Assembly: GCA_948567375.1 (NCBI GenBank)
Contig: CAOYZS010000005.1
Coordinates: forward strand, 310,001-374,000
DNA: 64,000 nucleotides
Reading direction: 5' to 3'
Origin: Lunularia cruciata
Lineage: Eukaryota; Streptophyta; Marchantiopsida; Lunulariales; Lunulariaceae
Shown: positions 10,435 through 63,803 of the stretch, piece after piece
Layout of the letters: every line of letters starts with the position of its first letter
Numbering within the stretch: the first letter of the stretch is position 1
Made by a program: the position numbers and the translations under genes
The notes under the pieces: generated by a model
What the model was told of the DNA's origin: nothing
Database searches by the model: none
Seen by the model: only the letters and a program-made list of their open reading frames with translations

Positions 10435-11230
10435 TGTGACAACCCGACAAATATCACTTTTGCGGTAATCAGGTAAGTAAAGTTTGTTCCCGTAGAGATA
10501 CGAGTCAGAAATGTCCAAATATGAAGTCAAACGGTACAATGTAGTTCTTCTTGGTTGCGTCTTTAATCTCTCAGGTAGAAACCACACCTAGAAGAGAGTA
10601 ACAAGCACTGACTTGTAGTCTTGTCACAAATTAGCACTCCTTAATCACAAATCCATCAATTTTTTCCAAACAATCTTGATTGTGATGATTCAGGCTCTCC
10701 CAAAAATAGCACTTCACTGCAAAACAACTTTGCCTCAGAATTGTGTTCCACCCCTTTACTGAAGGCACAACTTCCTTGATTGAAATTGCTTCACATCAAC
10801 TTTGCACTGCACTCACAAATGCAGAATACTACCAACACTACAATTCCTCTCTGATTTGTCAAGGCATTGCTTTGATTGCACTTCACTCAGGATCAAACAC
10901 ACAGAATGAAGATCAAGGCTACAGAATCCAGCATCCAACAAGCACTCTGACTTGCACTTTGAATTTCTCCAAACACTCACAAACATAGACACAAAGTTGA
11001 TACTTGGAATCAAGCTCAAGCATGAAGCACTGCTTCACAACACTTTGCTTTATCTACTCTCAGAAATAATGAGCACTGAACAATAATTCCATGCAAATGC
11101 CACTCTTAAATAGTGAAGCAATCAACAGTTATCTTCCTAATGCACCTCTTCCTTATGACTCTACAAACCTGTAGATCCGAAATGACAATGCACCTCTTCA
11201 TATCTGCCTATTCAAATCTCAAATCTGTTA

Positions 11231-12645
11231 CTAATCCGATCCGATGTCTACTTCTTCCTCTGCTTTCATACCCAAACCCGAAGTAACTGTACTTCCTACT
11301 CCTCTATCCTTGGGTTCACAACTCCTACATCCTCTACCAGATCTAACAATTCTCTTTCCAAATCTGACATTTCACTAGTGGGTAATCTATCTAACTCTTT
11401 ATCTGCTGACCCACTCTTCTCTAATGTCTCCAATGGTAACTCCGAAGACATCTGCACTCCTACTTCATCTACTTCGGGTTTTGCTCTAACATCTTTCCGT
11501 AGTTTATCTTTCTCTAACTTCACTACATCTAATCTTATTGTGATATTGTCTTCAACTGCCAATATCTTCCTATCTACCCAAGTTCTGAGACTAATTAACA
11601 TTCAAGTTTATATCCTTTGCATGTCTCCTCCTCATCTCCTGCACCAACAATTTCAACTCGTGCAGCCTCATCTCTTCAATACAAACACTGGCCTTTGTAC
11701 TCAACATCGCATTCATCCTGATTATGATCTCCTTCAATGGCTCCAATCTCATCTTCCTTCACGCTCCCGATCTGCAAGCCAATCTTCCCTGTACATTGCC
11801 AACTCTGCCTCAAACTCGGCTTTCATAGTTTCCTTCTCCTTCTCCTTATGCACAATCTTCTCCTCTTGATTACGAAGTAACTCTCGTAATCTCTCTTCTT
11901 CCCTATATCTCATTGTCAACTCCCGTTGCCACGGTTGCTTCTTCTCTTCTACACTCTCCATCACTCTATCAAGCTCTTGTGCCTTCTCTACTACCCTCAC
12001 CATAGCCTAGATAATTTCTAGTCTTGAATCAACAAACTATTGCTTCAAGATTTTGTACTCTGCTACTTGTCTCTCCCTTGCTATGTCACTCTTCTTCACA
12101 AGTTCTTCTCGATACCTCGCTTCTCTCTTCAAGTTCTCAATAACTTGACATTGCACAACTGCATCCCCTCATAGTACTTCCCTTTCCTCCTCACCTCGGA
12201 TTATACTCCTCTTCAACTTCAAGTTCTCTTCGTCTAGTCTTGCTAATACTTGCAACACAGTCTTCACCTCCGGACATTTTGACTGCATCTCTTTATTCTT
12301 GTGCTCTAACTTCACTAACAATGGGCACACAATTTCTTACAGGTACTCCACTCCATCACTTGCAACTACTTCTACCCGCGGAGTGATCTCCTTCTTTACC
12401 TCTTCTTCTCCCAATACTCGCCTTCTTCTCCCAATACTCGCCTTCTTCTCTGTAGTTGTTGTATCAGAATAGACGCTTCACTTCTCAAACTAGCATTCTC
12501 CTCTTCCCTTGCCTTGCTTGGACCTGCTTCACACTTCGCCTTGCGTCTCGACCAAACTCCCCTTTGAATCATAATCTTCTTCTCCTCCGGCTTGAGTACC
12601 TCGTCCTCCAACTTCACATTATTTTCTTCCTTGAGCTCCACCCAA

Positions 12646-12676
<31 letters not shown>

Positions 12677-13295
12677 CTTCTTCTTCTTCTTCTGCAGCAG
12701 GTACCGACGTCATCTCCCTACCTTCATCACTATTGCTACTCGTATCCCCACTTTGTAGCGTAAGCTCAGGTTCTTCCTCGTGTTCCGAGTCTTTGGACTT
12801 GCACTCAGCTTTGCCTTTTGAGTCTTCCTCTGATGATACAATCACCACCATGCCTTTCCTTGGGTTTCCTCTACTGGTCTTTCAAGGTCTTGTCTTCTCT
12901 ACATCTTTGCCTTTGCCTTGTCAACTCTGCTTCTTCAACTTCAAAGTACTCACTTCTACCTCCGCACTCTTGCCTGTCTACGTCTAGTACTCATCAATGC
13001 TTCGGATTTGAAGAATATATTGTTGCTCCTCCTCATCGACTTCTCTTCCGAGCACCAATCTCCAATCCGACTCTATCCAGTGAGCCGGATTTCCTCTCTT
13101 CCCCTCTTCCTTGGGGCCATCAAGACACTTACTCTTGATTATCTCGATCATGAAACCTGGAAAACTTATGTTCCAGTTCCACGCCAAGAATGTGATCCAA
13201 AGTCGGCTCAAAACTTCAATTCTTGCGATCACATCTAACCTCCAAATCGCATGATTTCTCACTGCAAATTTGGAGTTCTTCTTTCCTCCTCCCAT
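11231..13295 (-). pseudogene. U3 ORF of A5, internal deletion, poly-Glu expansion
   Basis: The frame begins at the conserved MGGGKKNSKF start (13,295) and ends at the family C-terminus (VDIGSD) with a stop at 11,231. The N-terminal block runs normally to DWRLVLGRE and then jumps to VDEEEQQYILQIRS, so about 110 codons present in A6 are missing. The acidic middle carries a run of about 15 GAA codons at 12,647-12,693 (poly-Glu), where A6 and A17 have only a few Glu. A short tandem duplication sits near 12,404-12,445. The C-terminal coiled coil is kept but shifted in frame several times. No known domain is recognised. Confidence 0.75.
12647..12693. repeat. (TTC/GAA)n microsatellite inside the U3 ORF
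   Basis: About 15 uninterrupted CTT/TTC units. On the coding (minus) strand this is a poly-glutamate run in the acidic region of the A5 U3 ORF. Other copies have four to five Glu codons here, so the expansion is copy-specific. Confidence 0.95.
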
Positions 13296-13452
13296 CTTTC
13301 CTGCTTCCTCATTGTATCTTGGTTTAACTCTCTTGAATTCTCCTCTACACACTAGCGCATCTTCAACTCTACTTCCTTTCCCACAATCTCCTACAAGGTG
13401 ACTCCTCAACGGCAAAGGAGAATTGCTCGATATTGCTTCGTTGTTAGCCCGA

Positions 13453-13460
13453 TTTTTATA
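13453..13460 (-). promoter_or_regulatory. TATA box upstream of U3 ORF (A5)
   Basis: TATAAAAA on the minus strand, in the context GACTCTATAAAAATC, about 155 bp upstream of the MGGG start codon. The same context is found in A6, A17 and A23, so it is conserved across copies. Confidence 0.6.
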
Positions 13461-13849
13461 GAGTCACACCTTCTTTGTCTCTCTTCAATTTGAGTTTCTA
13501 TCAAGAAATCACACCTCTTGCATGCACTTGCCATTGTCAAGTATACTTCACGCATATGACCACCGGTTTTGAACGGTCCCTTCTTGAATTTCTCACCCCG
13601 AAGAAAGGTTGTTACACTGTGTTTGCCTTGGGTTGAGCTCCCCCCAATACAAAGACTTCTTACTTTGGGTTGTATGCTGATAGGGAAAGTCCGAGTACTT
13701 TGCCTTATGACCCGAAGCCACGTTACCTTGGGTTTCATCCCGAAGATGATTTTCTTTGCCTTCTTTGGCTATACAAGCGCAATCCGACTTCTCTATACAC
13801 TTCTTCTTCTTCATTTCAAAAAAACAAAAAATGTGGGTACCACACCAAG

Positions 13850-13957: not shown

Positions 13958-14625
13958 TATGACAACCCGGCAAATATCACTTTTGCGGTAATCAGGTAAG
14001 TAAAGTTTGTTCCCGCAGAGATACGAGTCAGAATTGGTCAAATACGAAGCAAAGTAACAATGTAGTTCTTCTTGAGTTCTTCTTTAGTCTCTCAGGTAGA
14101 AACCACATCCAGAAGAGAGTAACAAGCACTGACTCGCAATCTTGTCACAAATTAACACTCCATAATCACAACTCCTTCAAATCTTTCCAAACAATCTTGA
14201 TTTGTGATGATTCAGGCTCTCCCAAAAACGGCACTTCACTGCAAAACGACTTCGCCTCAGAATTGTGTTCTACCCCTCCACTGAAGGCACAACTTCCTTG
14301 ATCAAAATTGCTTCACATCAACCTTGCACTGCACTCCCAAATGCAAAATACTACCAACACTACAATTCCTCTCAGATCTGTCAAAGCATTGCTTCGATTG
14401 CACTTCACTCAGGATCAAACACACAAAATGAAGATCAAGGTTGTGGAATCCAACATCCAACAAGCACTCTGACTTGCACTTCGAATTTCTCCGAACACTC
14501 ACAAACACAATTGCAAAATTGATACTCGCAATCAAGCTCAAGCGACGAGCACTGCTTCATAGCACTTCGCTTTATCTATTCTTAGAAATAATGAGCACTG
14601 AACAACAATTTCCTACAAATGCCAC

Positions 14626-14635
14626 TCTTAAATAG
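14626..14635 (-). promoter_or_regulatory. Second TATA box (TATTTAAG), probable genomic RNA promoter, A6
   Basis: The minus strand reads CTATTTAAGAG about 120 bp after the U3 ORF stop, followed by GTTGTTCAGTGCTCAT. The same TATTTAA(A/G) box at the same place occurs in A7, A17, A19, A22 and A24. This places the U3 ORF in U3 and the following 650 bp in R-U5. Confidence 0.6.
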
Positions 14636-14750
14636 TGAACAATCAACAGTTCTAACAACTATACCGTTTCTACAACAACTGTTCTAACCTGCAGATCCGA
14701 AATGACAATGCACCTCTTCATATCTGCCCCTTCAAATCTCAAATCAGTTA

Positions 14751-17180
14751 CTAATCCGATCCGATGTCTACTTCTTCCTTGGCTTTCAAACCCAAACCCG
14801 AAGTAATCTTACTTCCTACTATCTTTTCCTCGGGTTTTAGATCTTCTACTTCTTTGACCAGATCCAGCAATTCTCTTTCCTGCTCTGAAATTGCACTAGT
14901 GGGTAACCTATCTAACTCTTCATCTTTCGACCCACTCTTCTCTAATGTCTCTGAGGGCAACTCCGAAGACATTTGGATTCCTATGTTATCTACTTCGGGG
15001 TTTGCCTTAACATCTTGCCGAAGCTTTTCTAACTCTATTCTCACTAAGTCTAATCTAATCGCAATATTGTCTTCTACTTCTAAGATCTTCCTGTCTACAC
15101 GAGTTCTAAGACTAATCAACAAGGCATTCAAATCTGTATCTTTTGCTTGTCTTCGCCTCGTCTCTTGCACCAACAACTTCAACTCGTGCAACCTTGTTTC
15201 TTCAATCCGAACGCTGGCTTCTGTACTGAACATTGCGTTCACTTTGAGGACTATCTCCTTCAATGGCTCCAATCTTGTCTTTTGTTCTTGTTCCCGATCT
15301 GCAAGCCATTCCTCTCTGTACATTGCCAACTCTTTTGCGAACTCGGCCTTCACCGCTTCCTTCTCCTTCTGTACAATTTTCTCTTCCTGATTACGAAGTA
15401 ATTCTCATAATCTCTCTTCTTCTCTATACTACACAGACAACTCTCTTTGCCAGAGTTGCTTCTTCTCCTCCATACTCTCCATCACTAGATCGAGCTCTTG
15501 ATCCTTCGATGCTACCCTTGCCATAGCATGGATAAGCTCTACTCTTGAATCAGCAAACTGCTGCTTCAAGATTTCGAATTCAGCTACTTGTCTCTCCCTT
15601 GCAATGTCACTCTTCCTCGCAAGACCCTCTCGATAACTCACTTCTCTCTTCAGGTCTTTGATTACCTGACTTCTCTCTACTGCTTCCGCTCACAGTACTT
15701 CTCTCTCCTTCTCACCTCGGGTTATACTCTTCTTCAACTCCGAGTTTTCTTCTTCTAATCTCGCTACCACCTGCAATATAGTCTTTACCTCTAGACAAGT
15801 CAACTGCATCTCCTTCTTCTTCTTCTCCAACTTCACTAACAGCAGGCACACTACTTCTTGCAGGTAATCTACTCCATTATTGGCAACTTCTTCCTCCCAC
15901 GGAGTGGTCTCTCTTCTCTCTTTGTGTTCTCCCAATACTCGCCTTCTTCTCTGGAGTGTTTGTATCGGAATTGATGCCTCACTGCCCGAGCTTTCTTCTA
16001 CCTCTTCCTTCACTCTACTCGGCCCCGCTTCACACTTTGCCTTACATCTCGAGCGAACTCCTCGCTGCACTGCGATCTTCTTCTCCTCTAGCACCGGTAC
16101 TTCGTCTTCCAGCGCCGCATTGTCTTTGGCTTCTACTTTGGCTTGCACTTCTTCTTTGTATTCTTCAGCCGCTGGTGCCGAGGTCATTTCTCCACCGTCT
16201 TCACTGTCACTGCTAGGATCTCCACTCTGCAGTGTCAACTCAGGTTCCTCCTCACATTCCGAGTCCTCTGTCTTGAGCTTGGCTTCGCCTTCTGAGTCTT
16301 CATCTTCTGACTCAATCACCACCATTCCTTGCCTCGGGTTATTTTTCTGTATCTTCTGAGGTTTCTTGTTTTCTTCGGCTTCTGCGTGCCGAGTTCTCTT
16401 CTTCGTCGGGGTACTTACCATGACCTCCACGTTTTTCCCTATCTTCGCGTAGTAATCGTCCGTGCTCCGGATTTGGAGAATGTATTGCTGCTCCTCCGCG
16501 TCGACTTCTCTTCTCAAGTCAGGATGGAAATGAGACACCATTCTATTGCACTCCGCCATATTGAGCAAATTCAACCCAAGGTAGAAATGTGCTGCAAATG
16601 GTATGATGTAGTGTGGAGGCGACTTATCCCGCAGATTCCACACCATCTGCCGCGTTCTCCCGTGAAAGCACCTTGCCCAATTGATCGGTTCTCCTGCAAA
16701 TAACTTGTGAAAGAACATTGCTTGGTGTTTCATCACATAAGTGGTTCTCTCTGGCTTCAGGATGGCCATTAGTGCACTCACAATTCCTCTCCTCACAGGG
16801 TCTTTGTAGCTCTCAACTTTGTACCCATTCTTCGTTCTCTTCGACGAGAAGGCATCTCTCACCTCCTACGTTTCTTGGGCTATCTCTCCTTTCCCCAAGA
16901 ACGTGGCTCCCTGCTCCAAACCCGCGTCCTTCCCGAGTACGAGTCTCCAATCCGACTCTGTCCAGCGAGCTGGATTTCCTATCTTTCCTTCTTCCTCGGG
17001 ACCATCGAGACACTTACTCTTGATGATTTCTGTCATGAATCCTGGAAAACTTACGTTCCAGTTCCATGCCAAAAAGGTGATCCAAAGTTGGCTCAAGACT
17101 TCGATCCTCGCTACTACATCTAATCTCCAAATTGCATGATTTCTCACTGCAAATTTAGAGTTCTTCTTCCCTCCTCCCAT
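14751..17180 (-). pseudogene. U3 ORF of A6: about 809 codons, one frame, four premature stops
   Basis: Reference copy of the LTR-encoded gene. From MGGGKKNSKF (17,180) to VDIGSD-stop (14,751) all parts lie in one frame with no net frameshift. Premature stops are at 16,866 (TAG, Gln in relatives), 15,690 (TGA, Arg), 15,429 (TAG, Gln) and 15,405 (TGA, Arg). Layout: residues 1-240, conserved block with FLAWNWNVSFPGFM, ESDWRLVLG, TTYVMKHQA, PPHYIIPFAAHFYLGLNLL and EEQQYILQIRS; about 250-420, acidic then basic low-complexity; about 425-720, heptad-rich coiled coil including RERQVAEFEILKQQFADSR; about 745-809, conserved tail LEKSGS...LDRLPTS...VDIGSD. An earlier ATG at 17,318 (MLSNF) lies only about 20 bp from the TATA box, so I prefer MGGG. 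I know no family match. A distant relation to the 'plant transposon protein' domains of other plant elements is possible. Confidence 0.85.
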
Positions 17181-17337
17181 CTCTTCTGCTTTCTTATTGT
17201 CTCTCAATTTCTCTCTCGCGACTTCTCCCTTGCGCACTAACACGAGTCCAACTCTATTTCCCTTTCCCCGATCACCTGCAAGACGACTCCTCAACGGCGA
17301 AGGAAAATTGCTCAACATTTTGTCGTTGCAGTTTTGA

Positions 17338-17345
17338 TTTTTATA
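17338..17345 (-). promoter_or_regulatory. TATA box upstream of U3 ORF (A6)
   Basis: TATAAAAA on the minus strand, in the context AACTCTATAAAAATC, about 160 bp before the MGGG start. Conserved with A5, A17 and A23. Confidence 0.65.
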
Positions 17346-17736
17346 GAGTTGCACTTCTTCGTCTTCCGTCACTTCGAGTTTCTACCGAGAAATCACACCT
17401 CCGGCATGCACTTGTCACTGTCAATCAACCTTCGTGCATATGAGCCGCCAGTTTTGAAACAGCCCCTTCTTGAATTTCTCTCCCCGACGAAAGGTTGTTA
17501 GACTGTCTTCGCCTCGGGTTGAGCTCCCCCCGATCCGAAGACAATTTACTTCGTATTGTATGCTGACACGGCATTTCCGAGTACTTCACCTTATGACCTG
17601 AAGTCACTTTACTTTGGGTTTCATCCCGAAGACAATTTTCTTCACCTTCTTCGGCCATACAAGCACAATCCGTCTTCTTTATACACTTCTTCTCCTTTAT
17701 TTTGAAAAAAACAAAAAATGTGGGCACCACAAAAAG

Positions 17737-22904: not shown

Positions 22905-23290
22905 CAAAGTCATCAATAAAGACTTCCACAAATTTCCATAAATCTTAAAAATTTGCATTCATCATCAATTGGAAAGTAGCTAGACCATTACACAACTTGA
23001 AGGGCATTTGATTATCAACAAAAGTGCCCCAATTGGTGGTGAATGTGGTTTTAACCTTGTCTTCTTCTCAAATAGATACTTGATTATAGCCTGAAAATCC
23101 ATCCAAAAAACTATAGCAAGGATGACCAACTACTTGGTCCAGAATTATATCAGTAAATGACAAAGGATGATGATCCTTCCTCTTAATTGTGTTTAGCTTG
23201 CTGACATCTTGGCACACATGAATCTTCTCAATCTTCTTCTTTGGAACAATGACAATGGGAGAAACCCACTCACTACTGAAGACAAAGAAA
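22905..23290 (-). pseudogene. G1 reverse transcriptase, Ty3/gypsy, cut at the catalytic FIDDF motif
   Basis: The minus strand reads SEWVSPIVIVPKKKIEKI, HVCQDVSKLNTIKRKDHHPL, CYSFLDGFSGYNQVSI, TTNWGTFVDNQMPFKLCNG and VEVFIDDF, the conserved Ty3/gypsy RT blocks in order. The FIDDF motif (YxDD box of RT, here with Ile) lies at 22,906-22,920, and the frame ends there because A7's LTR end abuts it. A TGA and frameshifts show it is dead. RNase H and integrase, expected downstream, are missing. The block set and the tRNA-Asp-like primer site resemble the Athila/Tat group; that placement is tentative. Confidence 0.85.
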
Positions 23291-23880
23291 GATTATTCCA
23301 GCCACTAAGTACTTATTGATTTCATCTTTCACTAAAGCGAGTACTTTGAGTTCATGTGATATTGTCTTTGCTAAACTAGAATTGCACTTTCAACAAGATC
23401 AATCTTATGTTCCCCAAATTTTTTGGGAATTCCTTGCATTTGATTGATAGTCTAGGTGAATATATCCTAGTACTCAAAGAACAAGGTAGTGTATCCTATC
23501 AACTCGTCTGAAGTGACTATATTTGAAAATTTCAAAATTCTGCCTTTGGACAAGACTACATCTTGAGAGTCATCAGGGTTGATAGCTCCTTAAACATGGT
23601 TGACTCAGCTCAACCCAGTTATATGGAGTTCAAATCCCTTTTCCTCCAAATCGTTTTCACCCAAGGTGATGTCATAGGGATCTTTGTCTTTGACCTCTAC
23701 CTCGTAGCACTCCAAGTAATTAACTTGGACTTCTTCATTTGAGTCATTGAAGACAAAGATGATGGATCTTCAGATTCATCTTTGTCTTCTAACAACATTC
23801 ATTCTCCAAGGTGGAGAACCTTTGTTCAACTCACCGTCACCGGCTTTTGGTCCTCAAAGATGTCCTTTAACCTCAACTTC
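23291..23880 (-). pseudogene. G1 protease-RT linker
   Basis: Heavily decayed linker between protease and RT. The minus strand retains CKEFPKNLGNIRLILLKVQF just upstream of RT, a position where gypsy pol genes have the segment leading into the first RT block. There are many stops. No other domain is visible. Confidence 0.5.
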
Positions 23881-24260
23881 TATTGGTGCCAATCCACAAT
23901 AACTTGAGTGATGTATAACCAAGGACCTCTGATCAACAATGGATTACTAGTCTTTTTCATTGGTTTGAACATGATGTAATTCAACTTAAATGGCACTCCA
24001 CTGATGATCATAGCAATGTTTGACAACATGCCCAAAGGTCATCTCCAAGGTTGATCTGCAAACTTCAACATTTGGGGTGTAGGTTCAAATGTCTAATACC
24101 CCAATCTATCCGCTGTATCTTTTATCATCACATTCACACCTCAACCCGAGTCAATGGGTATAAATGTTATATGCATCCCCTAATCTCCACATCCAGTTTA
24201 AGAGATCCCAAATCTTCTTGTTTAATACAATAAATGGCAGGCAATTCTTTCTTGGTCATC
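23881..24260 (-). pseudogene. G1 aspartic protease
   Basis: The minus strand reads FIPIDSG, one stop, then GVNVMIKDTADRLGY: the D-S-G active site of a retroelement aspartic protease (24,144-24,152) and the following conserved N-V-M stretch. Further on, NPLLIRGPWLYITQVIVDWHQ matches the C-terminal protease region of plant gypsy elements (xxGRPWL-type block). The order gag-protease-RT is that of Ty3/gypsy. It is non-functional because of stops and frameshifts. Confidence 0.75.
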
Positions 24261-24970
24261 ACCCTTACTTTCTTGAGGGCCATACTTAGTTGCTTCTTAT
24301 ATAGCTTGTTGTCCTCTCATAGTTGGCCTAGGTAGATGCCAAATCTGCCACAATGTTGTAATGCCAAATCTGTCATATTGTAGTACTACTCCAAGTTCCA
24401 CCTTCTTGCCCTTTGTTTTTGGATTCAAGGTTCTCTCCTTCTCTAGCCTTTCTTCAAAATGTTGTAGGATAATAGCTAGAGTACCAACAGTTTGAACCCA
24501 AAATTCTTCAGGGTTTACCTACCTTGGCTTGTATGAGATCCTCTAATTTGGATTGCATGTCTGCCAGAAAAATCGGAGGCTTAGTCATTTCTTGAGTCCA
24601 TTGTACTACCTCTTGTATCTCTTTTTGCAAGGCTTTGGCCTTAGATTTAGCCAAGATCTTCTCTTCATTTAAAGATAAGATTGCTTAGGGCCAACGTCTC
24701 TTCACCTTTCTAGAAGATGAAGAAGTGGTACTCACTTCTTTAGGATCGTGCTTCTTTTTCCTTGAGCATGTTTCAACTCATAATACCTCAAGATCCAGCC
24801 ATTCCTATTCTGGAGCCGGCCTTCCTCCTTGAGGCCTCTCTTCTTCCAAAGTTATACAATTTATAGTGGCCTCTCCTTTGGACTGAAGTGCAGCAAGCTC
24901 AAAAGGAGTCTGTATTCTCAAGTGCAGCATGTCAGTAGGAGTCATATTTCACATGAGATTTTGGGTTGGG
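24261..24970 (-). pseudogene. G1 gag-protease spacer
   Basis: Decayed sequence between nucleocapsid and protease. The minus strand is lysine- and glutamate-rich with short frames. I see no domain. It is expected as linker by position. Confidence 0.35.
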
Positions 24971-26463
24971 TGGTTGAGGACATTGACATCCAACATGGTC
25001 TGACCCTTTACAATTTCCACAAAGTGAAACATACCTAATCGGCCGCCTCAGCTCAGGACAATTTGGAGACCAATAGCCCATAGAGCTACAATTGTAACAT
25101 GCCCTTGGGCAACATTTTGAGGCCTATTTTGGTTACATATTGGCGGTCTTTGTTGAGGAGCACTATTGTTATACCTTAGTCCATACCTCAGATCTTGATA
25201 CGATGTGCTTGCTTGAGGTTGTACCTCTTGTGTTTGGTACACTGCCTCTTCTTCCTCATTTTGATCGCAACTTAGGATCCAATCAATCCACTACACTGGA
25301 AATGCAGTTTGGGCTTAACACTTTGAATTAGCATGGCCTAACTAGCCACACACAATGCACCATACATTTGGTCTTCCAAATGAACATTTCTTTGGTACTT
25401 TGTCCCAATCATTTGGATCTTAAAATGTACAAACTCTTTAATAAGAGTCTTCAGCGTAGTGTCAATCTTATTTACACCTTAGTTGGGGGTGTCAATACTC
25501 TCTTTCCTCCTTGCCTTTTTATTCTTCTTGGCTTTGAATCTCCTTTGGATTCCAAAGAAGAAATAGAAGACATGGAGGCTTCTTCCAAAGAAGAGAAGGT
25601 ATTGTGAGAAGCTTTACATTTGGTCTTCTTGCCTTTCTTCTCTTGATTTCTTTGGTTACTAGAAGAGTGAGAGTGAGCCACCTCGTATTGGGCAATGTGT
25701 TTGAGTACCTTGTTTAGGGAAGTTACATTCCTCTCCCTAGCAAAGATGCATATCTTTGTGACAAACTACCAAGGAACCAAGTAATGGCTTGGGCATTGGA
25801 GTAACTCACCACATTGGATTGCTTAAGCTCTTGGTTCAATAAGGCCATGAACCGCTCAAAGTAGTCTCTTTACTTCTCCTTCTTTCCTTGTTCCAAATCA
25901 TTGAGTGCCATGAAGACACTCATATCATAATCAACTTCTTGGAATCATTCCAAGAAGTTGTTTCACAAGTCTACCCAGTAGACTAGTCTGAACTCCTTTT
26001 GGGTTACATGAGTGTACCAACTCCTTGCATTCTTTCAAAGTAGACTTGGGAAAATCTGCAACCAATCAATAGAGTCATATTCCTTATTGGCAAAGGAGAT
26101 GATTTTGGATTCCTTGATGAATTCATCAAGATCTTTGTCTTGTTCCGTCCCCTTATACTTTTGGTATGCATGTTTAGTGATGGGTAATAAAGTCATCCTA
26201 TAACTCTGAGGGGTAGGTCACAATAGTGTGGAACTTGATGGACCCAAGCTATTGGCTGGTGATTTGGCATAAGTGTCAACCCAAGGGTTCCAATTCTCCA
26301 AATTCAAAACTTGGTCTTCATAGACAAGTTCTTCTTCAAAAGGTATGGCAATGTCAACCCAAGTTGGAGAAAGAGGTTCAATATCATCAGATGGCTCTTT
26401 AAGATCCCTTTGAGCTAGTCGAGGAATTGTGTGTAAGATATATTGACACTCTTCTTCTGTCAA
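24971..26463 (-). pseudogene. G1 Gag with two zinc knuckles
   Basis: A frame starting near 26,463 (MTEEECQYILHTIPRLAQRD) is followed by a Gag core with DLDEFIKESKIISFANKEY, DWLQIFPSLL, ARSWYTHV and KEFRLVYWVDL, the W..IFP / A..WY pattern of the retrotransposon Gag domain. The nucleocapsid end has a degenerate knuckle C-x2-C-x4-Y-x4-C (CYNCSSMGYWSPNC, 25,058-25,099) with Tyr in place of His, then a perfect C-x2-C-x4-H-x4-C (CGNCKGSDHVGCQC, 24,980-25,021). Stops and frameshifts break it. Gag coats the RNA in virus-like particles in the cytoplasm. Its N-terminus is paralleled at 58.6-58.93 kb after A22. Confidence 0.8.
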
Positions 26464-26863
26464 AATTTTGCCATCTTCTCACGGATGAATTCTTTTATGA
26501 AACCAACTCCCTTGATAGCTTTAGAGGAAGTCGGTGTATTGGGTCACAACGAATATGTTTGTCCACTTGTGTCTTTCTTCTTCTTGGGATTTGGAGATGC
26601 AAAGAAGAACTCACCACCGAACTTCATGTTTCCTTTTTTTGAGGTCCTTCAATGCTTCTTGAACTTCATGAAGAAGTTATAAACCTAATGCCTCCTTTTC
26701 AGATTTGTCATTGGTGGATTGGCTCTTCTAACTTTCTTCTCTTCATGATGCAAAGTTTATTTATAAGCTCTCTCTTCCTATTGCTCTCTCAATGCAAACA
26801 TTCATATTTGCTGGACACTTAGTGTAAGATTCAATTTCAAATTCTTCCACTCTTGAGATTTGT
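26464..26863 (-). other. G1 leader and Gag N-terminal region
   Basis: Region between the primer-binding site and Gag on the minus strand. It shares leader sequence with 48.72-48.87 kb and 58.43-58.58 kb (GATACAAATCT...GTGGAAGAAT, GAATGT.TGCAT.GAGAG), and Gag N-terminal sequence with 58.6-58.93 kb. This shared leader ties all three loci to one family. Confidence 0.7.
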
Positions 26864-26882
26864 ATCCTCAGTAGCAATGTCA
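26864..26882 (-). promoter_or_regulatory. Primer-binding site of G1, decayed tRNA-Asp type
   Basis: The minus strand reads TGACATTGCTACTGAGGAT, 7 bases inside the A8 LTR end. It is a decayed form of TGGCGCCGTTGCCGGGGAT, the complement of the plant tRNA-Asp 3' end. Position and the better-kept versions at 48.87 and 58.41 kb support the call. Confidence 0.65.
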
Positions 26883-26889
26883 AAAATCA

Positions 26890-43502: not shown

Positions 43503-43899
43503 TGTGAGAACCTGGCAAATATCACTTTTGTGGTAATCGGGTAAGTAAAGTTTGTTCCCACAGAGATACGAGTCAGAATTGGTCAAATACAATGTCAAAA
43601 AGTAACAATGTAGTTCCTCTTGATTGCGTCTTTAATCTCGCAAGTAGAAACCACAAATCTGTTACTAATCCGATCCGATGTCTACTTCTTCCTCGGCTTT
43701 TAAACCTGATCCCAAAGTAATTGTACTTCCTACTATTCTATTCTTGGGTTTCATAACTCCTACATCTTGTACCAAATCTAATAGTTCTCTTTCCTGATCT
43801 GAAATTTCACTAGTGGGTAATCTTTCTAACTCCTTATCTCTTGACCCACTCTTCTCTAATGTCTCCAATGGTAACTCTGAAGACATCTTTACTCCTACT
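43503..43899 (-). mobile_element. A16, left part: LTR end and U3 ORF tail
   Basis: It begins TGTGAGAACCTGG; the preceding 5 bp are TCGGA. Most of R-U5 is deleted between TAGAAACCACA and AATCTGTTACTAATCC. The U3 ORF tail follows (stop near 43,665). A17 interrupts it at 43,899 and it resumes at 47,661. Confidence 0.8.
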
Positions 43900-44283
43900 T
43901 GTGGCACCCACATTTTTTTTTCTTCAAAATAAAGACGAAGAAGTGTATAGAGAAGTCGGATTGCGCTTGTATGGCCAAAGAAGGCAAAGAAAAGAGTCTT
44001 CGGGATGAACCTGAAGTAAAGTGACTTTGGGTCATAAGGCAAAGTACTCGGAAATGCCCTGTCAGCATACAACCCAAAGTAAGGAGTCTTCGTATTGGGG
44101 GGAACTCAACCCGGGGTGAAGTCAGTCTAACAACCTTTTGTCGTGGCAAGAAATTCAAGAAGGGACTGTTCAAAAACCTGCGGCCCATACGCGCGAAGTA
44201 TGATTGACAGTGATAGGTGCATGCAAGAGGTGTGATTTCTCGGTAGAAACTCAAAATGAAGAGAGACAAAGAAAGTGCAACTC

Positions 44284-44291
44284 TATAAAAA
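44284..44291 (+). promoter_or_regulatory. TATA box upstream of U3 ORF (A17)
   Basis: TATAAAAA in AACTCTATAAAAATC, 27 bp before the first ATG (44,311) and 165 bp before the MGGG ATG (44,449). Plant transcription usually starts about 30 bp after TATA, so the first ATG would lie at or before the transcript start. This supports the MGGG start. Confidence 0.65.
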
Positions 44292-44448
44292 TCAAGCTCG
44301 CGACAAAGCAATGTCGAGCAATTTTCCTTTGCTGTTGAGAAGTCCTCCTGCAGGTGATCGTGGGAAGGGAAATAGAGTTGGCAACGCGCTAGTGTGTAAG
44401 GGAGAAGTCGCAAGAGTGAAACCGAGAGACAGTGAGAAAGCAAGAGAG

Positions 44449-46860
44449 ATGGGAGGAGGAAAGAAGAACTCCGAATTTTGCAATGAGGAATCATGCGATT
44501 CGGAGGTTAGATGTAATCGCAAGAATAGAAGTCTTGAGCCGACTTCAGATTACATTCTTGGCATGGAACTGGAATGTTAGTTTTCCAGGGTTCATGACTG
44601 AGATCATCGAGAGCAAGTGTCTCGATGGACCCGAGGAAGAAGGGAAGAGAGGAAATCCGGCTCGTTCGACAGAGTCGGATTGGAGATTAGTACTCGGGAA
44701 GGAAGCAAGCTCGGAGCAGGGGGCCACGTTCTTGGGGAGGGGAGAGATAGCCAAGGAAACCCAAGAAGTGAGAGATGCATTCTCGTCAAAGCGGACAAAG
44801 AATGGGTACAAAGTCAAGAGCTACAAAGATCTTGTCAAGAGGGGAATTGATGGCAATCCTGAAGCCGAAGAGAACAACCTATGTGATGAAACACCAAGCG
44901 GTGTTCTTTCACAAATTGTTTGCAGGAGAGCCAATCAATTGGGCAAGGTGTTTCCATGGGAGAACACGACAAATGGTGTGGAATCTGCGGGATAAATCGC
45001 ATCCACACTACATCGTGCCATTTGCAGCTCATTTCTACCTCAGGTTGAATTTGCTGAACTCGACGGAGCGTAGTAGGATGGTGTTGCATTTTCATCCTGA
45101 TTTGAGAAGGGAAGTTGACATAGAGGAGCAGCAGTACATCCTACAAATTAGAAGCACCGACGAGTACTACAAGAAGACAGGGAAGAATGTGGAGAGCAAA
45201 GTGAGTACTCCAAAATCAAAGAAGAGAAGTCGGGAGGGCAAAGTCAAAGATACGACAAAACCGTGGAAGACCAGAAGAGGAAACCCGAGGTGAGGAATGA
45301 TGGTGATTGAGTTGGAAGATGAAGACTCGGAAGCAAAAGCCGAGTGCAAGTCCAAAGATTCGGAACACGAGGAGGAGCCCGAGCTAACGCTACAGAGTGG
45401 AAATACAAGTAGTGACAACGATGAGGGTGGAGAAATGACATCGGTGCCAGCTGCTGGAGAGGAGGAAGAAGAAGTGCAGGCAGAAATCAAGGCCGAGGAC
45501 AACACAAAGTTGGAAGATGAAGTACCCGAGGCAGAAGAGAAAAAGATCGCAGTTCAGAGGGGAGTTTGCTCGAGACGCAAGGCGAAGTGTGATGGTCCAA
45601 GTAACTTGAAAGAAGAGATGAATGTAAGCTCAAGAAGCGAGGCGTTAGTTCCGATACAAAGACTATAGAGAAGAAGGTGAGTATCGGATGAAAAAGAAGT
45701 GCAAAGAGAAGTTGCTATGCAAGAAGAGGTAACCCCGAATGATGGAGTCAAGTACCTGCGGGAGGTGGTGTATCCTCTGTTGGTGAAGTTAGAACACAAG
45801 AAGAAGGAGATGCAATCAAGGTGTCCGGAAGTGAAGACTGTGTTGTAGGTCTTAGCGCGATTAGAAGAAGAGAACTCAAAGTTGAAGAAGAGTATAACCC
45901 GAGGTGAGGAGGAAAGGGAACTACTACGAGTAGAGGCAGTAGTGAAGACTCAGGTAATTGAAGACCTGAAGAGAGAAGTGAGTTATCGAGAAGATCTTGT
46001 TAAGAAGAGTGACATTGCAAGGGAGAGACAAGTAGCAGAATATGAGATCTTGAAGCAGCAGTTTGCTGATTCAAGAGTAGAAGTTATCCATGCTATGGCG
46101 AGAGTAGCAGCAAAGGAACAAGAGCTCGATAGGGTGATAGAGAGTGTAGAAGAGAAGAAGCAGCTCTGGCAAAGAGAGTTGGCAACACAATATAGGGAAG
46201 AAGAGAGATTATGAGAGTTACTTTGTAGTCAGGAGGAGAAGATTGTATAGAAGGAGAAGGAGAAGGAGACGGTGAAAGCCGAGTTTGAAGCGGAATTGGC
46301 AATGTATAGGGGGGATTGGCTTGTAGATCGAGAGCAAGAAAGGAAGATGCAATTGGAGCCGTTGAAGGAGATAGTCCTCAGAATGAACGCGATGTTGAGT
46401 ATAGAGGCCAGCATTTGGATTGAAGAGACACGGCTGCACGAGTTGAAGTTGTTGGTGTAGGAGACGAGGCGATACAGATTTGAATGTGTTGTTAATTAGT
46501 CTCAAGACTCGTGTAGACAGGAAGATTTTAGAGGTAGAAGACAATATTTTGATTAGATTAGACATAGTGAAATTGGAGATAGAAAAACTTTGGAAGGATG
46601 TTAGAGCCAAACCCAAAGTAGATAATATAGGAGTGCAGATGTCTTTGGAGTTAGAGAGAGAGACATTGGAGAAGAGTGGGTTGAGAGATGAAGAGTTAGA
46701 AGGGTTACCCACTAGTGCAATTTCAGATCAGGAAAGAGAATTGTTGGATCAAGTAGAAGAAGTAGAAGATGTGAAACCCGAGGATAGAGTAGTAGGAAGT
46801 AAAATTACTTCGGGTTCGGGTTTGAAAGCCAAAGAAGAAGTAGACATCGGATCGGACTAG
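44449..46860 (+). pseudogene. U3 ORF of A17, about 800 codons, several breaks
   Basis: Plus-strand counterpart of the A6 gene. A 1-bp shift lies soon after MGGGKKNS. The N-terminal block then reads FLAWNWNVSFPGFMTEIIES, ESDWRLVLGKEASSEQGATF, TTYVMKHQAVFFHKLFAG, INWARCFHGRTRQMVWNLRD and HYIVPFAAHFYLRLNLLN. Then come an acidic region at about 45.3-45.5 kb, a basic patch (QRGVCSRRKAKC), the coiled coil at about 45.8-46.6 kb and the tail to VDIGSD, TAG at 46,858. Stops include TGA after GNPR, TAG in VKTVL, TGA in EERL and TAG in EKIV, mostly at codons that are Gln or Arg in other copies. Function is unknown. Confidence 0.85.
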
Positions 46861-46976
46861 TAACAGTTTTGAGATTTGAAGAGGCAAATATGAAGAGGTG
46901 CATTGTCATTTTGGATCTACATGTTAGAAGAGTTGTTATAGAATGGTATAGTTGTTAGAACTGTCAATTTGTTCAC

Positions 46977-46984
46977 TATTTAAG
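46977..46984 (+). promoter_or_regulatory. Second TATA box (TATTTAAG), A17
   Basis: TATTTAAG 117 bp after the U3 ORF stop. It is followed by ATGTTGTTCAGTGCTCATTA, conserved in all copies. It is the likely promoter of the genomic RNA in an LTR that has gag-pol behind it. About 670 bp remain to the LTR end (R-U5). Confidence 0.6.
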
Positions 46985-47660
46985 AGTGGCATTTGCAGTC
47001 TCATGTTGTTCAGTGCTCATTATTTCTGAGAATAGATAAAGCAAAGTGCTGTGAAGTAGTGCTCGTTGCTTGAGCTTGATTCCGAGTATCAATGTTGTAC
47101 TTGTGTTTGTGAGTGTGTAAAGAAATTTGAAGTGTAAGTCAGTGTGCTTGTTGGATGTTGGATTCCATAGCCTTGATCTTCATTTTGTGTGTTTGATCCT
47201 GAGTGAACTGTAATCGAAGCAATACCTTGACAGATCTGAGAGGAATTGTAGTGTTGGTAGTATTCTGCATTTGTGAGTGCAATGCGAAGTTGATGTGAAG
47301 CAATTTTGATCAAGGAAGTTGTGCCTTCAGTGGAGGGGTGGAACACAATTCTGAGGCGAAGTCATTTTGCAGTGAAGTGCCATTTTCGAGAGAGCCTAAA
47401 TCATCACAATCAAGATTGTTTGGAAAGATTTGATGGAGTTGTGATTAAGGAGTGTGAATTTGTGACAAGACTGCAAATCAGTGCTTGTTACTCTCTTTTG
47501 GGTGTGGTTTCTACCTGAGAGACTAAAGAAGAACTCAAGAAGAACTGAAATTGCTATTTTTGCTTTGTATTTGGAAATTTTTGACTCGTATCTCTGCGGG
47601 AACAAACTTTACTTACCTGATTAACCGCAAAAGTAATATTTGCCGGGTTGTCACACTACT

Positions 47661-55150: not shown

Positions 55151-55535
55151 TGTGGTACTCACAATTTTTGTTTCTTTTTTAAATGTGGAAGAAGAAGTGT
55201 ATAGAGAAGTTGAATTGCGCCTGTATGGCCAAAGAAGGCAAAGAAAAGTGTCCTTGGGATGAAACCCAAGGTAACGTGGCTTTGGGTCATAAGGCAAAGT
55301 ACTCGGAATTGCCTTGTTAGCATACAACCCAAAGTAAGGAGTCTTTGCATCGGGGGTCCTCAACCTGAGGCAAGGACAGTGTAACAACTTTCCTTCAAGG
55401 TGAGAGATTCAAGAAAGGTCTATTCAAAAATGGTAGTCATTCGCATGAAGAACACTTGACAGTGATAAGAGCATGCATGAGGTGTGATTTCTCGGTAGAA
55501 ACTTGAATTGAAGAGAGACAAAGAAGGCGTGACTC

Positions 55536-55724: not shown

Positions 55725-57228
55725 ATGGGAGGAGGGAAGAAGAACTCCAAATTTGTAGTGAGAAATCATGCAATTTGGAAGTTAGATGTGATCGCAAGAA
55801 TTGAAGTCTTCAGCAGACTTCGGATCACATTCTTGGCATGGAATTGGAATGTACGCTTTCCAGGGTTCATGACTGAGATAATCAAGAGTAGATGTCTTGA
55901 TGGCTCCAAGGAAGAGAGGAAGAGAGGTAATCTGGCTCGTTGGACGGAGTCGGATTGGAGGTTAGTACTTGGAAGAGAAGCAGGCACAGAGCATGGTACC
56001 ATGTTCTTGGGGAAGGGAGAAGTAGCAGAAGAAACCCAGGAGGTGAGAGATGCTTTCTCTTCAAAAGCGCACAAAGAATGGTTACAAAGTAGAGAGTTAC
56101 AAGGATCCTGTCAAGCAAGGGATCGCGAGTGCTCTAATGGCAATCTTGAAGCCAGAGAGAACAACTTATGTGATGAAGCACCAAGCGGTGTTCTTCCATA
56201 AGATGTTTGCAGGAGAGTTGATTAATTGGGCAAAGTATTTTCAAGGGCAAACAAGACAAATGGTGTGGAATTTGCGGGATAAATTGCCTCCGCATTACAT
56301 TGTGCCATTTGCAGCTCATTTTTATCTAGGGCTGAACTTGCTCAATGCGGCGGAATGCAACAAAATGGTGTTGCATTTCCATCCCGACTTAAGAAAGGAT
56401 GTTGACACGGAGGAACAACAATACATTCTTCAGATCAAGAGCAGCAATGAGTACTACACGCAGACAAGGAAGAGTGTGCAATTGGATGTGAGTACTCCAA
56501 AGTCAAAGAAGAGGAGTCGACAAGGAGAAGGAGAAGATGTTGAGAAAATAAGACCTCAGAAGACTAAAAGAGTAAACCCAAGGAAAGGTATGGTGGTAAT
56601 TGCATTGTTGGAGGAAGAATCAAAGGGTGAAGCCAAGTGCAAGTCCAAAGACTCAGAAAGAGATGAAGAACCCAAGCTCACAATGCAGAGTGGAGATACA
56701 AGTAGTGACAATGACAATGGAGGGGAGATGACATCAATACCCGATGAAGAAAAAGCCACAATAGAGATGGAGGAGAAAGGTAACTCGAAGTTGGAAGACG
56801 GAGTGCCAGAGCAGGAAGAAAGGAAAGTTACCATTCAACAAGGAGTTCCTTCCAGGCGAAAGGCAAAGTGTGAAGTTGGGCCGAGTAAGGTAAGAGAAGA
56901 GGAGAATGAAAGTTTAGGGAGTGAAGCATCCATTCCTATACTGCAACTATGGTTCAAAAGGCGAGTGTCGAGTGAAGAAGAGGTGAAGAAGGAGATCACT
57001 CCGCAAGTTGAGGTAACTTTGAGTGAAGGAGTGGAGTACCTGTGGGAGGTTGTGTGCCCCTTATTAGTGAAGTTAGAGCACAAGAAGAAGGAGATGCAGT
57101 CGAAGTGTCCAGAGGTGAAGAGTGTGTTGCAAATGTTAGCACAATTAGAAGAAGAGAACTTGGAATTGAAGAAGAGTATAATCCTAGGTGAGGAGGAAAG
57201 GGAAGTACTACGAGTAGATGCAGTATAG
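55725..57228 (+). pseudogene. U3 ORF of A23: longest open copy of the N-terminal half
   Basis: It starts MGGGKKNSKFVVRNHAIWKL at 55,725 and needs one 1-bp shift near 56,066 (an extra A in TTCAAAAGCGC). After that it is open for 392 codons from 56,050 to TAG at 57,226. It shows the complete conserved block: FLAWNWNVRFPGFM, ESDWRLVLGREAGTEHGTMF, KNGYKVESYKDPVKQGI, TTYVMKHQAVFFHKMFAG, GQTRQMVWNLRDK, PPHYIVPFAAHFYLGLNLL, EEQQYILQIKSSNEYY. It also has the acidic/basic middle and the start of the coiled coil. The C-terminal third is deleted; the stop comes from the deletion joint. Best copy for structure prediction of the N-terminal half. Confidence 0.8.
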
Positions 57229-58406: not shown

Positions 58407-58413
58407 TGATTTT

Positions 58414-58432
58414 TGGCACTGCTGCCGGGGAT
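58414..58432 (+). promoter_or_regulatory. Primer-binding site of A22 element, tRNA-Asp type
   Basis: TGGCACTGCTGCCGGGGAT, 16 of 19 bases identical to the complement of the plant tRNA-Asp 3' end. Spaced from the LTR end by TGATTTT, exactly as in the A18 element. Confidence 0.88.
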
Positions 58433-60088: not shown

Positions 60089-60759
60089 TGTGACAACCCA
60101 GCAAATATCACTTTTGCGGTAATTGGATAAGTAAAGTTCATTCCCGCAAAGATACTATGCAGAAATGTCCAAATACAAAGTCAAAAGTCACAATTGCAGT
60201 TCTTCTTGGTTTCTTCTTTAATCTCTCAGGTAGAAACTACACCCAAAAGAGAGTAATAAACTCACAATCTTGACAACTTGTCACGAATACACACACATAA
60301 TCACATCATAGCAAATTCTGTCCAAACAACTCTTGAGTGTGATGATTCAGATTCTCCCAAAGATGGCACTTCACTGCGAAGCACAATTTCACCTCAGAAT
60401 TGTGTTCCACCCTTCCACTAAAGGCACAACTTCCTCGATCAAAATTGCTTCACATCAACTTCATGCTGCACTCACAAATGCAGAATACTACCAACACTAC
60501 AATTCCTCTCAGATTTGTCAAGGCATTGCTCCTATGCACTTCACTCAGGATCAAACACACAGAATGAAGATCAAGGCTACAGATTCCAACATCCACAGAC
60601 ACACTGACTTGCTCTTTGGAATTCTCCACACACTCACAACTACAAACATGAAATTGACAATTGGAATTAAGCTTAAGCGATGAGCACTGAGAACAACACT
60701 TTGTTTTATCTATCTTTAGAAATATAAATACTGAATAACATAGGACTGCGAATGCTCCC

Positions 60760-60767
60760 TTTAAATA
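60760..60767 (-). promoter_or_regulatory. Second TATA box (TTTAAATA region), A24
   Basis: The minus strand reads AGTATTTAAAGGG about 130 bp after the U3 ORF stop, at the same place as TATTTAA(A/G) in A6, A17, A19 and A22. Confidence 0.5.
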
Positions 60768-60887
60768 CTAAAGCAAATGGTAGACCTCCCTACCTATGCA
60801 CCGCTTCCTAACATCTCTTTCTACTTGCAGATCCCAAGAGGCAATCTATCTCTTCATATCCGCCTCTTCCTATCTCAAAATAGATAC

Positions 60888-63435
60888 TTATCCTGATCCG
60901 ATGTCTACCTCATCATTGGCTTCCAAACCCAATGATCTTCCCACTACTTCTCCTTCCTCAAGTATAGTTAAGTCTACCAATTCCTTCACTAATTCTACTA
61001 CTTCTACACTAGGAACTACAATTGAGCTCAGGAGTGACTTATCTAACTCTCTATCTCCTGACCCACTCTTCTCTAATGTGTCAATTATCAAGTCCGATGA
61101 CGCTTGAATTCCTATTTTTGCAATATCCGGTTTCTTCTCCAATGTCACACTATTCCAAATCTTCTCTAACTCCGAATTGACTAAATCTAATCTAAGACTA
61201 ACATTGTTCTCTACTTCTAACATTTTCCTATCTACGTGTTCCCTCAATCGGATCAACAAGGTGTTCATGTCCACATCCTTGGCTTTTCTATTCCGAGTTT
61301 CTTGCACAAGTAACTTCAACTCATGTAGGCGGGCTTCTTCCAATCTCCCTTCAGCCTCCATGCTTAAGATTGCTCTCAACTTCCCCGCAACTTCACCCAC
61401 TGATTCTGATGCATATCCTCGAGAACGTTCTACCTTCAACTCCTCACGATACATCTTCAACTCGTCTTCGTACTCCACAGCAAGCATCTTCTTCTCCTCT
61501 GCATACTGCATGCTCTGCCTTTCCATGCTCTTGACAAGTTCTCGTAATTGTTCATCTTCTTCTTGCCTAGCTGCCAACTCTCTCTGCCATGCTTGATCTT
61601 TCGCCGCTGCACTCTTCTTCAAACTATCCAACTCTTGCTCCATTACAATGGTCATCGCCTTCAAATGAACATTCTCAATGCACACATCACTCACTTCCTC
61701 CTTCATCTTGCTGAGGCACATTGCCTGTTCTGTTAATTCTCTGGCTCGCCTCTGCAGTTCCTTCTCTTTTACCTCGTAGCTTTCTTGTAACATGGTAAGA
61801 GTCTTCTTTGTCAAGCCTTCCTCCCTCCGGAGTTCTTCCACTCTTCAATTCTTTGGACTTGTTGCTCCTACAACTCCTTCACTTCACTCATCAAATACAT
61901 CACCACTTGCAACTCGTTCATCCCCTTTGTGCAATCTTGGGGAATTACCTTCCGATGATCCTTCAGTAGCTCCAGCACGGTGTGACCACCTTTGTCAAAT
62001 ACGATATTCTGCCAAAGTTCCCTTCCTCTTTATCATCATCTTCGTCTTGAGTCTTCACCTCCGTCATCAGCTCCTTCATCTGAAGTTGCGATCTTCGTAT
62101 CTTCATCATTTCGGTACTTTCTTTGTCTTGGCCTCTTCAACTCGGCCCCATGGGATTCCCCTCTTTCTCTTCTGGTCTTGGCTTGTTCACCTCCATCACC
62201 TGACAAGCCTCACTGACTGCCACGGATTGCTGAACTTCTGGCTCCCCATTGCTATCACTCTCGGACTCCTCACTTTTTAAGGTGAGCTCTTCTTCTTTAG
62301 ATTCCTCCTCTTGCGACTTGGTTTCTTCCCCAGACTCCGATCCCGATGATGCATCTTTCACCATCTTTGTAGTCTTTAAAATCAGCCGCCGAGTCTTTCT
62401 TTGAGTGGGAGGTGACTTTGCTTCTTTGGGTTTGCCACATTTCTTTGTCTTTGGACTGGTAATTTCTTTGACCTTCCACTGTCCGATCTTCAAGAAATAT
62501 TCATCATTTGCTTGAAGATGCAGCGTATATTGGCGCTCTTCCTCGTCTGCTTCCCGTTGTAAATCCGGATGAACGTGGGACACCATACAATGATGCTCCT
62601 CTTCGGTCAGCAGGTTCAATCTGAAGTAGAAATTTGCTGCAAACGGTGCAAAGTAATGCGGTGGCGAGCCCGTCCGCCAATTAACCACCATCTGCCTTGT
62701 GCGGTGGTGAAAGCACTTCACCCAATTCACTGGAACTCTTGCAAACATCTAATGGAAGAGCACGGCTTGCTGCATGTTCACATAGGTGGTTTGTTATGGC
62801 TTGAACATGGCCATCATCGCCCCCACAATGCTTCTTCGGATCGGATCCCGATAGGACTCCACCTTGTATCCATTCGTTGTTCTTGGAGCGAAAAATGAGT
62901 TGCAGATCTTTGCGGTCTCCTTTGTAGCATCACACTTCTGATAGAAGGTGATCCCCATCGGCTCTCCTACTTATCTCCCCAATACTAACCTCCAATCCGA
63001 CTCAATCCATCGAGCAGGGTTGCCTCTCTTCCCTTCCACCTCGGGACCCTCTTCACAATTACTGGCAACAATCTTTGCCATCACTCCCGAGAAACTAAAA
63101 TTCCAGTTCCATGCTAAAAATGTAATACGAAGTCTAGTCAAGACTTTGATTCTAGCTACTACATCTAATCTTTGGATTGCAAAACCTCACACCGCCAGCG
63201 CATTGGCCACCTTCTTCGCCATGATCTGTTCTCTCGTTCTACGATGCTGGAAGATGAGACCCTCTCTTGGATGAGACACTCTAACTCCCTCGGGGTTTCG
63301 GAAAATCTCACTCTTGATGGGCTTCTGGACACGCATTACTACATGACGACTACTCAAAAGGATTGGAAATTTACTCGGAACATTCAACTTGTCCCTACAC
63401 AGTCGCAATTTTATATTACCCCGAATCATAATCAT
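60888..63435 (-). pseudogene. U3 ORF of A24, second subfamily, two long open parts
   Basis: N-terminal part in one frame from 63,435 to 62,137 with a few stops: MAKKVANALAV, RLRITFLAWNWNFSFSGVMA, ESDWRLVLGR, GITFYQKCDATKETAKICNS, then an open 203 codons (MFARVPVNWVKCFHHRTRQM, HYFAPFAANFYFRLNLLTEE, EERQYTLHLQANDEYFLKIG, acidic EEESKEEELTLKSEESESDS). After a frame change, 317 codons are open at 60,888-61,841. These hold the coiled coil (ENVHLKAMTIVMEQELDSLK, RLHELKLLVQETRNRKAKD, RLREHVDRKMLEVENNVSLR) and the tail (LEKSGSGDRELDKSLLSS...VDIGSG). Start uncertain (63,435 or MAKKV near 63,220). The same architecture as A6 despite wide sequence divergence argues for a selected protein. Confidence 0.82.
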
Positions 63436-63788
63436 TCTTTAGTCAATTTCAGCTTCGAACATCTCTCTTCTGCGTGCAAATCCCGGTCACTATCAAGACA
63501 TGCTTCTTCTGCCCCCGCCGTTTCTTGAAATGTACTTTCTTGCCACGTACCAAGGTTGTTAAATGGTCTTTGTATCTCCTGTGCCTTCCGACCCAAAGAC
63601 GGTGCTCTTTGGACTTCTTCTATCGTACTACTTTTCCGAGTACCTCCATCATCGGATCCGATGTCATCTTCTTCGGATGTCCTCCGAAGTTACTTTCGTC
63701 CATTCTTCATCCGCAATTTGACTTTTTGTGCTTACTTCTTCTCTTAAACACAAATAAACATAGAAAAAGAAAAAAAGTGGGTACCACA

Positions 63789-63803
63789 TACCCCCTCCCT
63801 CAA
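63789..63803 (-). promoter_or_regulatory. Polypurine tract before A24
   Basis: The minus strand reads TTGAGGGAGGGGGTA immediately before TGTGGTACCC. The TGA of this tract is also the stop codon of the integrase frame, so pol ends inside the polypurine tract. Confidence 0.85.

Follow-up and report, generated by a model that had tools for sequence, protein, structure and literature searches.

A long reading frame inside the long terminal repeats of a Ty3/gypsy retrotransposon family of the liverwort Lunularia cruciata, likely within U3

The stretch analysed here, hereafter the window, comprises 64 kb of the Lunularia cruciata genome (contig CAOYZS010000005.1, positions 310,001 to 374,000) and contains a solo long terminal repeat (LTR) in which most of the sequence is taken up by a single decayed protein-coding frame in the sense orientation of the LTR (Table 1). 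An initial annotation had described the LTRs of this family as having TG...CA ends, perfect 5-bp target-site duplications and one long coding region on the sense strand, and this was confirmed: exact duplications flank the cited solo LTR and two further LTRs of the window (the second solo LTR and the third LTR of Table 1), and the coding region was seen in an alignment of 22 LTR copies. The cited LTR is colinear with genome copies of 3758-3827 bp from outside the window; compared with the copy in the second solo LTR, its frame shows 7 stop codons and 3 indels that break the frame. Both solo LTRs carry the frame.

The frame was analysed in 22 aligned LTR copies (2 from the window and 20 from the genome), to which the following counts refer. 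Stop codons per 150-bp bin between LTR positions 451 and 2850 amounted to 0.1-2.2% in one sense frame and to 2.3-18% in the other two, and the frame starts with an ATG at LTR position 414 in 22/22 copies and ends with a TAG in 20/22, with a TGA twelve bases on in 22/22. Pairwise differences per site inside the frame were 0.119, 0.109 and 0.184 for codon positions 1, 2 and 3, compared with 0.147, 0.126 and 0.140 in the LTR before the frame and 0.118, 0.118 and 0.148 in the bin after it, which overlaps the frame's final 100 bp. Similarly, 117 of the 143 indel cells in the frame were multiples of three, compared with 2/107 before and 2/59 after it, and with looser borders these counts became 113/135, 2/108 and 6/66.

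Table 1. Features of the retrotransposon family in the 64-kb window (position 1 is the first letter of the window).
Feature	Position	Strand	Details
Solo LTR, cited copy	43900..47655	+	3756 bp, TG...CA; start TGTGGCACCCACA, end GGGTTGTCACA
Target-site duplication CTACT (5 bp), left	43895..43899	.	
Target-site duplication CTACT (5 bp), right	47656..47660	.	
LTR-borne frame, cited copy	44311..46860	+	849 codons nominal, decayed
TATTTAA box, predicted promoter of genomic RNA, end of U3	46977..46983	+	role inferred
ATAGATAAA, predicted polyadenylation signal in R	47032..47040	+	role inferred
Second solo LTR	13958..17731	-	exact duplication CTTTT/CTTTT
Frame of second solo LTR	14751-17318	-	855 codons, 4 stops
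Naturally open 390-codon stretch of frame, second solo LTR	15690..16862	-	
Third LTR	10435..13844	-	exact duplication CTTGG/CTTGG; interior ~400 bp shorter
Naturally open 392-codon stretch of frame, LTR copy starting at 55151	56050..57228	+	
Diverged-subfamily LTR with frame	60089..63788	-	3700 bp
Naturally open 317-codon C-terminal stretch, LTR 60089-63788	60888..61841	-	44% identical to subfamily 1
Polypurine tract GAGGGAGGGGGTA	63789..63801	-	abuts start of LTR 60089-63788
Primer-binding site	58407..58431	+	abuts an LTR end (58406)
Internal remnant: primer-binding site, gag with CCHC motif, start of reverse transcriptase, then another LTR	22905..26889	-	

Selection was estimated as the ratio of nonsynonymous to synonymous substitution rates (dN/dS; Nei-Gojobori with Jukes-Cantor correction) between open stretches of different copies, which belong to two subfamilies. 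The ratio was 0.10-0.35 for five pairs of subfamily 1 copies, and 0.13 and 0.28 for two pairs of subfamily 2 copies. Of ten pairs that span the subfamilies, the three with unsaturated dS gave 0.19-0.28. When the 5' LTR of one element was compared with its own 3' LTR, dN/dS was 1.14 (114 codons), and in a larger stretch shared by the same LTR pair the three codon positions differed by 0.037, 0.044 and 0.050, versus 0.040 in the non-coding part. Since the ratio is in the purifying range between copies and about 1 within a single element, we read this pattern as suggesting selection for the protein in mobile lineages before insertion and neutral decay after it, with the second half of this statement based on one LTR pair. 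Each of the 22 aligned copies carries 4-13 stops, and 102 of the 179 stop changes in these copies are of the kinds that one C-to-T or G-to-A change produces, which resemble changes at methylated cytosines.

With regard to complete elements, three LTR ends of the window, 26890(-), 48895(-) and 58406(+), abut a primer-binding site (PBS), and one LTR start, 63788(-), comes immediately after a polypurine tract (PPT). The initial annotation had placed the frame both in 5' LTRs with a PBS and in a 3' LTR with a PPT; the latter holds for the LTR at 60089-63788, while the PBS-bearing LTRs of the window are broken and show partial LTR sequence only, and the presence of the frame in 5' LTRs with a PBS was thus examined in elements from other parts of the 566-Mb genome, where it was found. 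Among 20 LTR copies fetched from the genome, the target-site duplications matched at 5/5 positions in 10, at 4/5 in 4, at 3/5 in 1 and at 2/5 in 2; the remaining copies were one partial LTR and two (L050, L051) with a PBS after the LTR. The element on C2 consists, in this order, of a 5' LTR (L050), PBS, gag, reverse transcriptase, RNase H, integrase, the PPT GAGAGAGGGGGTA and a 3' LTR, which again holds the frame together with a foreign insert of ~700 bp. Its internal region (L059) is 6164 bp long with RVT_1, RT_RNaseH and Integrase_H2C2 matches in gypsy order, the pol stop codon lies ~100 bp before the 3' LTR, the LTRs are 86-92% identical when compared in three pieces, and the flanks read GCATG and ACATG. 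An element on C7 (L062, L061) likewise has a PBS and a PPT with ~6.16 kb between its LTRs, which are 95.3% identical over 2.0 kb; its frame runs throughout the 3' LTR (read in two pieces), the part of the 5' LTR that was read, its last 2.16 kb, contains the C-terminal end, and the predicted protein shares 41-48% identity with that of subfamily 1. A third LTR pair, also on C7 (L063, L064), has the frame in both LTRs at 93.8% identity over 2921 aligned bases, with the end of the 3' LTR outside the sequence read. The expected two frame copies per element were thus seen in all three cases, the 5' LTR of the C7 element being represented by the C-terminal end. The true LTR length in the examined elements is ~3.7-3.8 kb with the frame inside, which for these elements excludes an arrangement of short LTRs with a single internal frame between pol and the 3' LTR. 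In the element that starts at L051, the internal region extends over ~2.7 kb and is followed by an unrelated gypsy element, and the 3' LTR was not reached in the 20 kb flank. This unrelated Ty3/gypsy-like element within the remains of the L051 element has long open pol stretches (L061, minus strand, ~2.1-5.8 kb of the locus).

Genome-wide we found 1439 LTR-PBS junctions (≤3 mismatches) and 1434 PPT-LTR junctions (≤2 mismatches), with no matches for reversed control patterns of either junction. Pairing was done among the junctions listed (66/100 for the PBS and 96/100 for the PPT), on the same strand and within 20 kb, and gave 8 pairs in element order and 1 in reverse order, with inter-LTR distances of 6151, 6158, 6171, 6188, 5766, 691, 9809 and 9907 bp for the former. 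The spacing of 6151-6188 bp is space for gag-pol and little extra, and the 9.8-9.9 kb pairs would fit an inserted solo LTR. At C2:53037048-53037761 the PBS and PPT junctions are 691 bp apart, which represents a deleted or non-autonomous internal region. The order of the reverse transcriptase, RNase H and integrase zinc finger domains supports the assignment to Ty3/gypsy, and a plant source is supported by the relatives of the RNase H/integrase stretch, of which liverworts ranked best among the named matches; the PBS is of a type common to the Tat and Athila lineages. Ty3/Gypsy bursts have been published for L. cruciata, according to the available part of PMC9985172. In a comparison of the C2 and C7 elements, the proportion of synonymous differences (pS) was 0.53 for gag-pol (dN/dS 0.15 over 1256 codons, with matches of <60% identity dropped), versus 0.82 for the LTR frames (200 codons; L025, which is the 5' LTR of the C2 element, and L062). 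Judged from these sequences, the LTRs may not share the history of the element bodies, as would result from an exchange of LTRs between lineages, although the dropped weak gag-pol matches could explain part of the gap.

A TATTTAA box and the A-rich motif ATAGATAAA, ~55 bp apart in the cited copy, are located downstream of the stop codon in 9/9 LTRs (8 insertions, both subfamilies). Because these motifs, which we read as promoter and polyadenylation signal of the genomic RNA, follow the stop codon, the frame likely lies wholly in U3, as the initial annotation had proposed. A candidate promoter of the frame itself (TATAAAAA, just before the start codon) was present in 6/6 subfamily 1 copies shown and 0/2 subfamily 2 copies, and was not adopted.

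The predicted protein gave only sub-cut-off matches in Pfam (YqhG E 0.0094, DDE_Tnp_1 E 0.2, GNAT E 0.46), no match at E≤0.1 in NCBIfam (3 stretches) and no match at E≤1 among PDB sequences with the N-terminal alignment as query. Rfam gave nothing at gathering score. No relative was found among 5.8 billion proteins, including those of Marchantia, Riccia and Calypogeia, with either one 392-residue stretch or a 12-row alignment of both subfamilies covering the N-terminal and middle parts, and tblastn of the frame protein against the gag-pol region of two elements gave no match at E≤1. For the conserved block, a suspected resemblance to domains of plant transposon proteins found no support in Pfam. 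The initial annotation had also suggested a structure prediction alongside the profile hidden Markov model searches, and AlphaFold2 modelled the C-terminal stretch as a single helix of 264 residues, with 154 residues at a predicted local distance difference test (pLDDT) of ≥90, a mean pLDDT of 73.8 and a predicted template modelling score (pTM) of 0.29. No membrane span was predicted in the three stretches scanned (all but a short middle part), the highest 19-residue Kyte-Doolittle mean being 1.42, and the middle of the protein is charged. The charged middle, the predicted long coiled-coil-like helix and the lack of a predicted span fit an oligomeric regulator or an RNA or particle factor and not an envelope protein, and the likeliest role would be that of a trans-acting accessory factor, either regulatory or structural.

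The usual view is that LTRs are regulatory DNA and that solo LTRs do not code for protein. The best-known gene inside an LTR is sag of mouse mammary tumour virus (MMTV), which sits in U3 and so in both LTRs. The available part of PMC11998498 describes sag as an LTR-encoded accessory gene that is retained in endogenous copies, with Sag as a type II membrane protein. Compared by description, sag and the liverwort frame are alike in being placed inside the LTR, but MMTV is a mouse betaretrovirus and Sag a membrane protein, whereas the liverwort protein has neither a predicted span nor a Pfam match over cut-off. The plant Ty3/gypsy elements Retand, Grande and RIRE2 carry an extra conserved frame close to their 3' end (PMC11963269, PMC7264820, as far as their text was available); these TRP28 frames are there described as antisense, lying after pol and ahead of an LTR that is short (315-1194 bp in Retand), and mostly containing PF04195, whereas the liverwort frame is in sense orientation inside a 3.7-kb LTR and has no Pfam match over cut-off, PF04195 not being among its sub-cut-off matches. 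In the sections of PMC7264820 that were available, Athila and Bagy2 have envelope-like sense frames internal to the LTRs, with membrane spans reported in some. These share with the liverwort frame the sense orientation of an additional frame and a place after pol in the RNA, but the liverwort frame is inside the LTR, with little room between the pol stop and the LTR in the C2 element (~100 bp), and no span was predicted in the stretches scanned. The rice elements Retrosat2, RIRE3 and RIRE8 resemble the liverwort family in having LTRs of ~3 kb and an extra frame, but their fast-evolving ORF0 lies upstream of the gag-pol frame and not in the LTR (PMC3485330, text available in part). More generally, additional frames of plant LTR elements are placed in the internal region in the portion of PMC7264820 at hand, and the accessible text of PMC1560396 concerns a gene within an element, not inside the LTR. 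No gene inside a plant LTR was found in a literature search that had most subscription journals and all bioRxiv preprints outside its reach.

Taken together, we consider it probable that this is a Ty3/gypsy family with 3.7-kb LTRs that carry a single frame of 850 codons, likely in U3, encoding what is likely a trans-acting accessory factor. In the retroviral cycle, reverse transcription copies U3 into both LTRs. If transcription of the genomic RNA begins past the frame of the 5' LTR, this RNA would hold only the copy of the 3' U3, as its last cistron near the 3' end, which would likely be translated from a spliced message or from one initiated internally. As U3 would be written into both ends, the gene would be doubled in each round, and the frame would stay behind when gag-pol is lost through recombination between the LTRs.

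Several observations weigh against this interpretation. The 20 genome copies were retrieved with the middle 392 codons (LTR positions 877-2054) as the similarity query; in the two parts of the frame outside this query the depletion of stops and the third-position excess are also present, and indel cells there are in threes in 21/30 and 31/44 cases (distinct events 4/13 and 11/24). Counted as distinct events over the entire frame, 24/50 indels were multiples of three versus 4/39 in the flanks, which is weaker than the cell counts. No complete open copy of the frame was found: among 23,930 first-look genome candidates 105 matches were scored for stops, and 104 of these have stops in the matched part, while the longest naturally open stretch in 29 loci and the window is 477 codons. 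Silent sites are saturated in 7 of the 10 between-subfamily pairs (pS 0.75-0.87, proportion of nonsynonymous differences 0.25-0.37). Subfamily 2 does not have the ATG shared by subfamily 1, and its sequences seem to start at another ATG, upstream and in frame. Finally, the AlphaFold2 prediction of the N-terminal stretch was poor (pLDDT 46).

The alternatives differ in how much of this evidence they can accommodate. It is extremely improbable that the frame is a by-product of a conserved DNA or RNA structure or of chance openness of purine-rich sequence: while some antisense bins have few stops too, a single sense frame is depleted of stops, third positions are the most variable, and dN/dS is ≤0.35 in the unsaturated pairs. 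Captured genes are known in plant retroelements (PMC7264820, in the part available), but a captured host gene, or LTR copies domesticated by the host, is a very improbable source of the frame given that no relative of the N-terminal and middle parts turned up in the protein collection with its three other liverwort genera, and that the divergence between the LTRs of a single element is neutral. An Athila/Bagy2-type envelope-like protein that came to lie in U3 would share the sense orientation and the post-pol place in genomic RNA with the envelope-like frames in the available text of PMC7264820, yet the absence of a hydropathy-based membrane span in the tested stretches and of a Pfam match over cut-off makes this very improbable.

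A structural partner of Gag, acting in particle assembly, RNA packaging or as a chaperone instead of as a regulator, would suit the long predicted coiled-coil-like helix and the charged middle; the lack of similarity to gag-pol in the tblastn comparison speaks against it, although a partner need not resemble Gag, and overall we regard this role as rather unlikely. Quite possible, on the other hand, is an origin in which the frame was at first internal, after pol and ahead of a shorter LTR, and became part of the LTR when priming shifted to an upstream polypurine tract, with its function unchanged. Its place in the RNA equals that of the additional frames after pol (PMC7264820, available sections), and pol of the C2 element ends close to the 3' LTR, but no element was encountered that has the frame outside its LTRs, other liverworts not having been searched. 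This origin and an accessory factor encoded in U3 can be true together.

An extension of the accessory-factor interpretation, which we put forward only tentatively, is that the LTR itself is the gene-carrying unit: what are likely thousands of solo LTRs would be portable cassettes for a regulator acting in trans for all copies of the family, whether on transcription, on silencing or on RNA export, and would move and recombine apart from gag-pol, and the frame would be the first U3-encoded accessory gene outside the vertebrate retroviruses. The family has >1400 LTR-PBS junctions and two old subfamilies, in both of which a protein frame under apparent selection fills most of the LTR. If this holds, the position of the polypurine tract would determine if an accessory gene is present once or twice per element, and the formation of solo LTRs could retain the accessory gene while gag-pol is dropped, which makes trans action of orphan LTRs directly testable.

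The remainder of the window is dominated by the same family, with 47.0 of the 64 kb matching either of two query LTRs (E≤1e-5). The LTRs at 10435-13844 and 13958-17731 are presumably those labelled A5 and A6 in the initial annotation, in which the labels lacked coordinates, and the LTR at 60089-63788 is presumably its A24. Overall the window has the appearance of a solo-LTR graveyard, in which the LTRs of one family are nested in one another and very little gag-pol remains.

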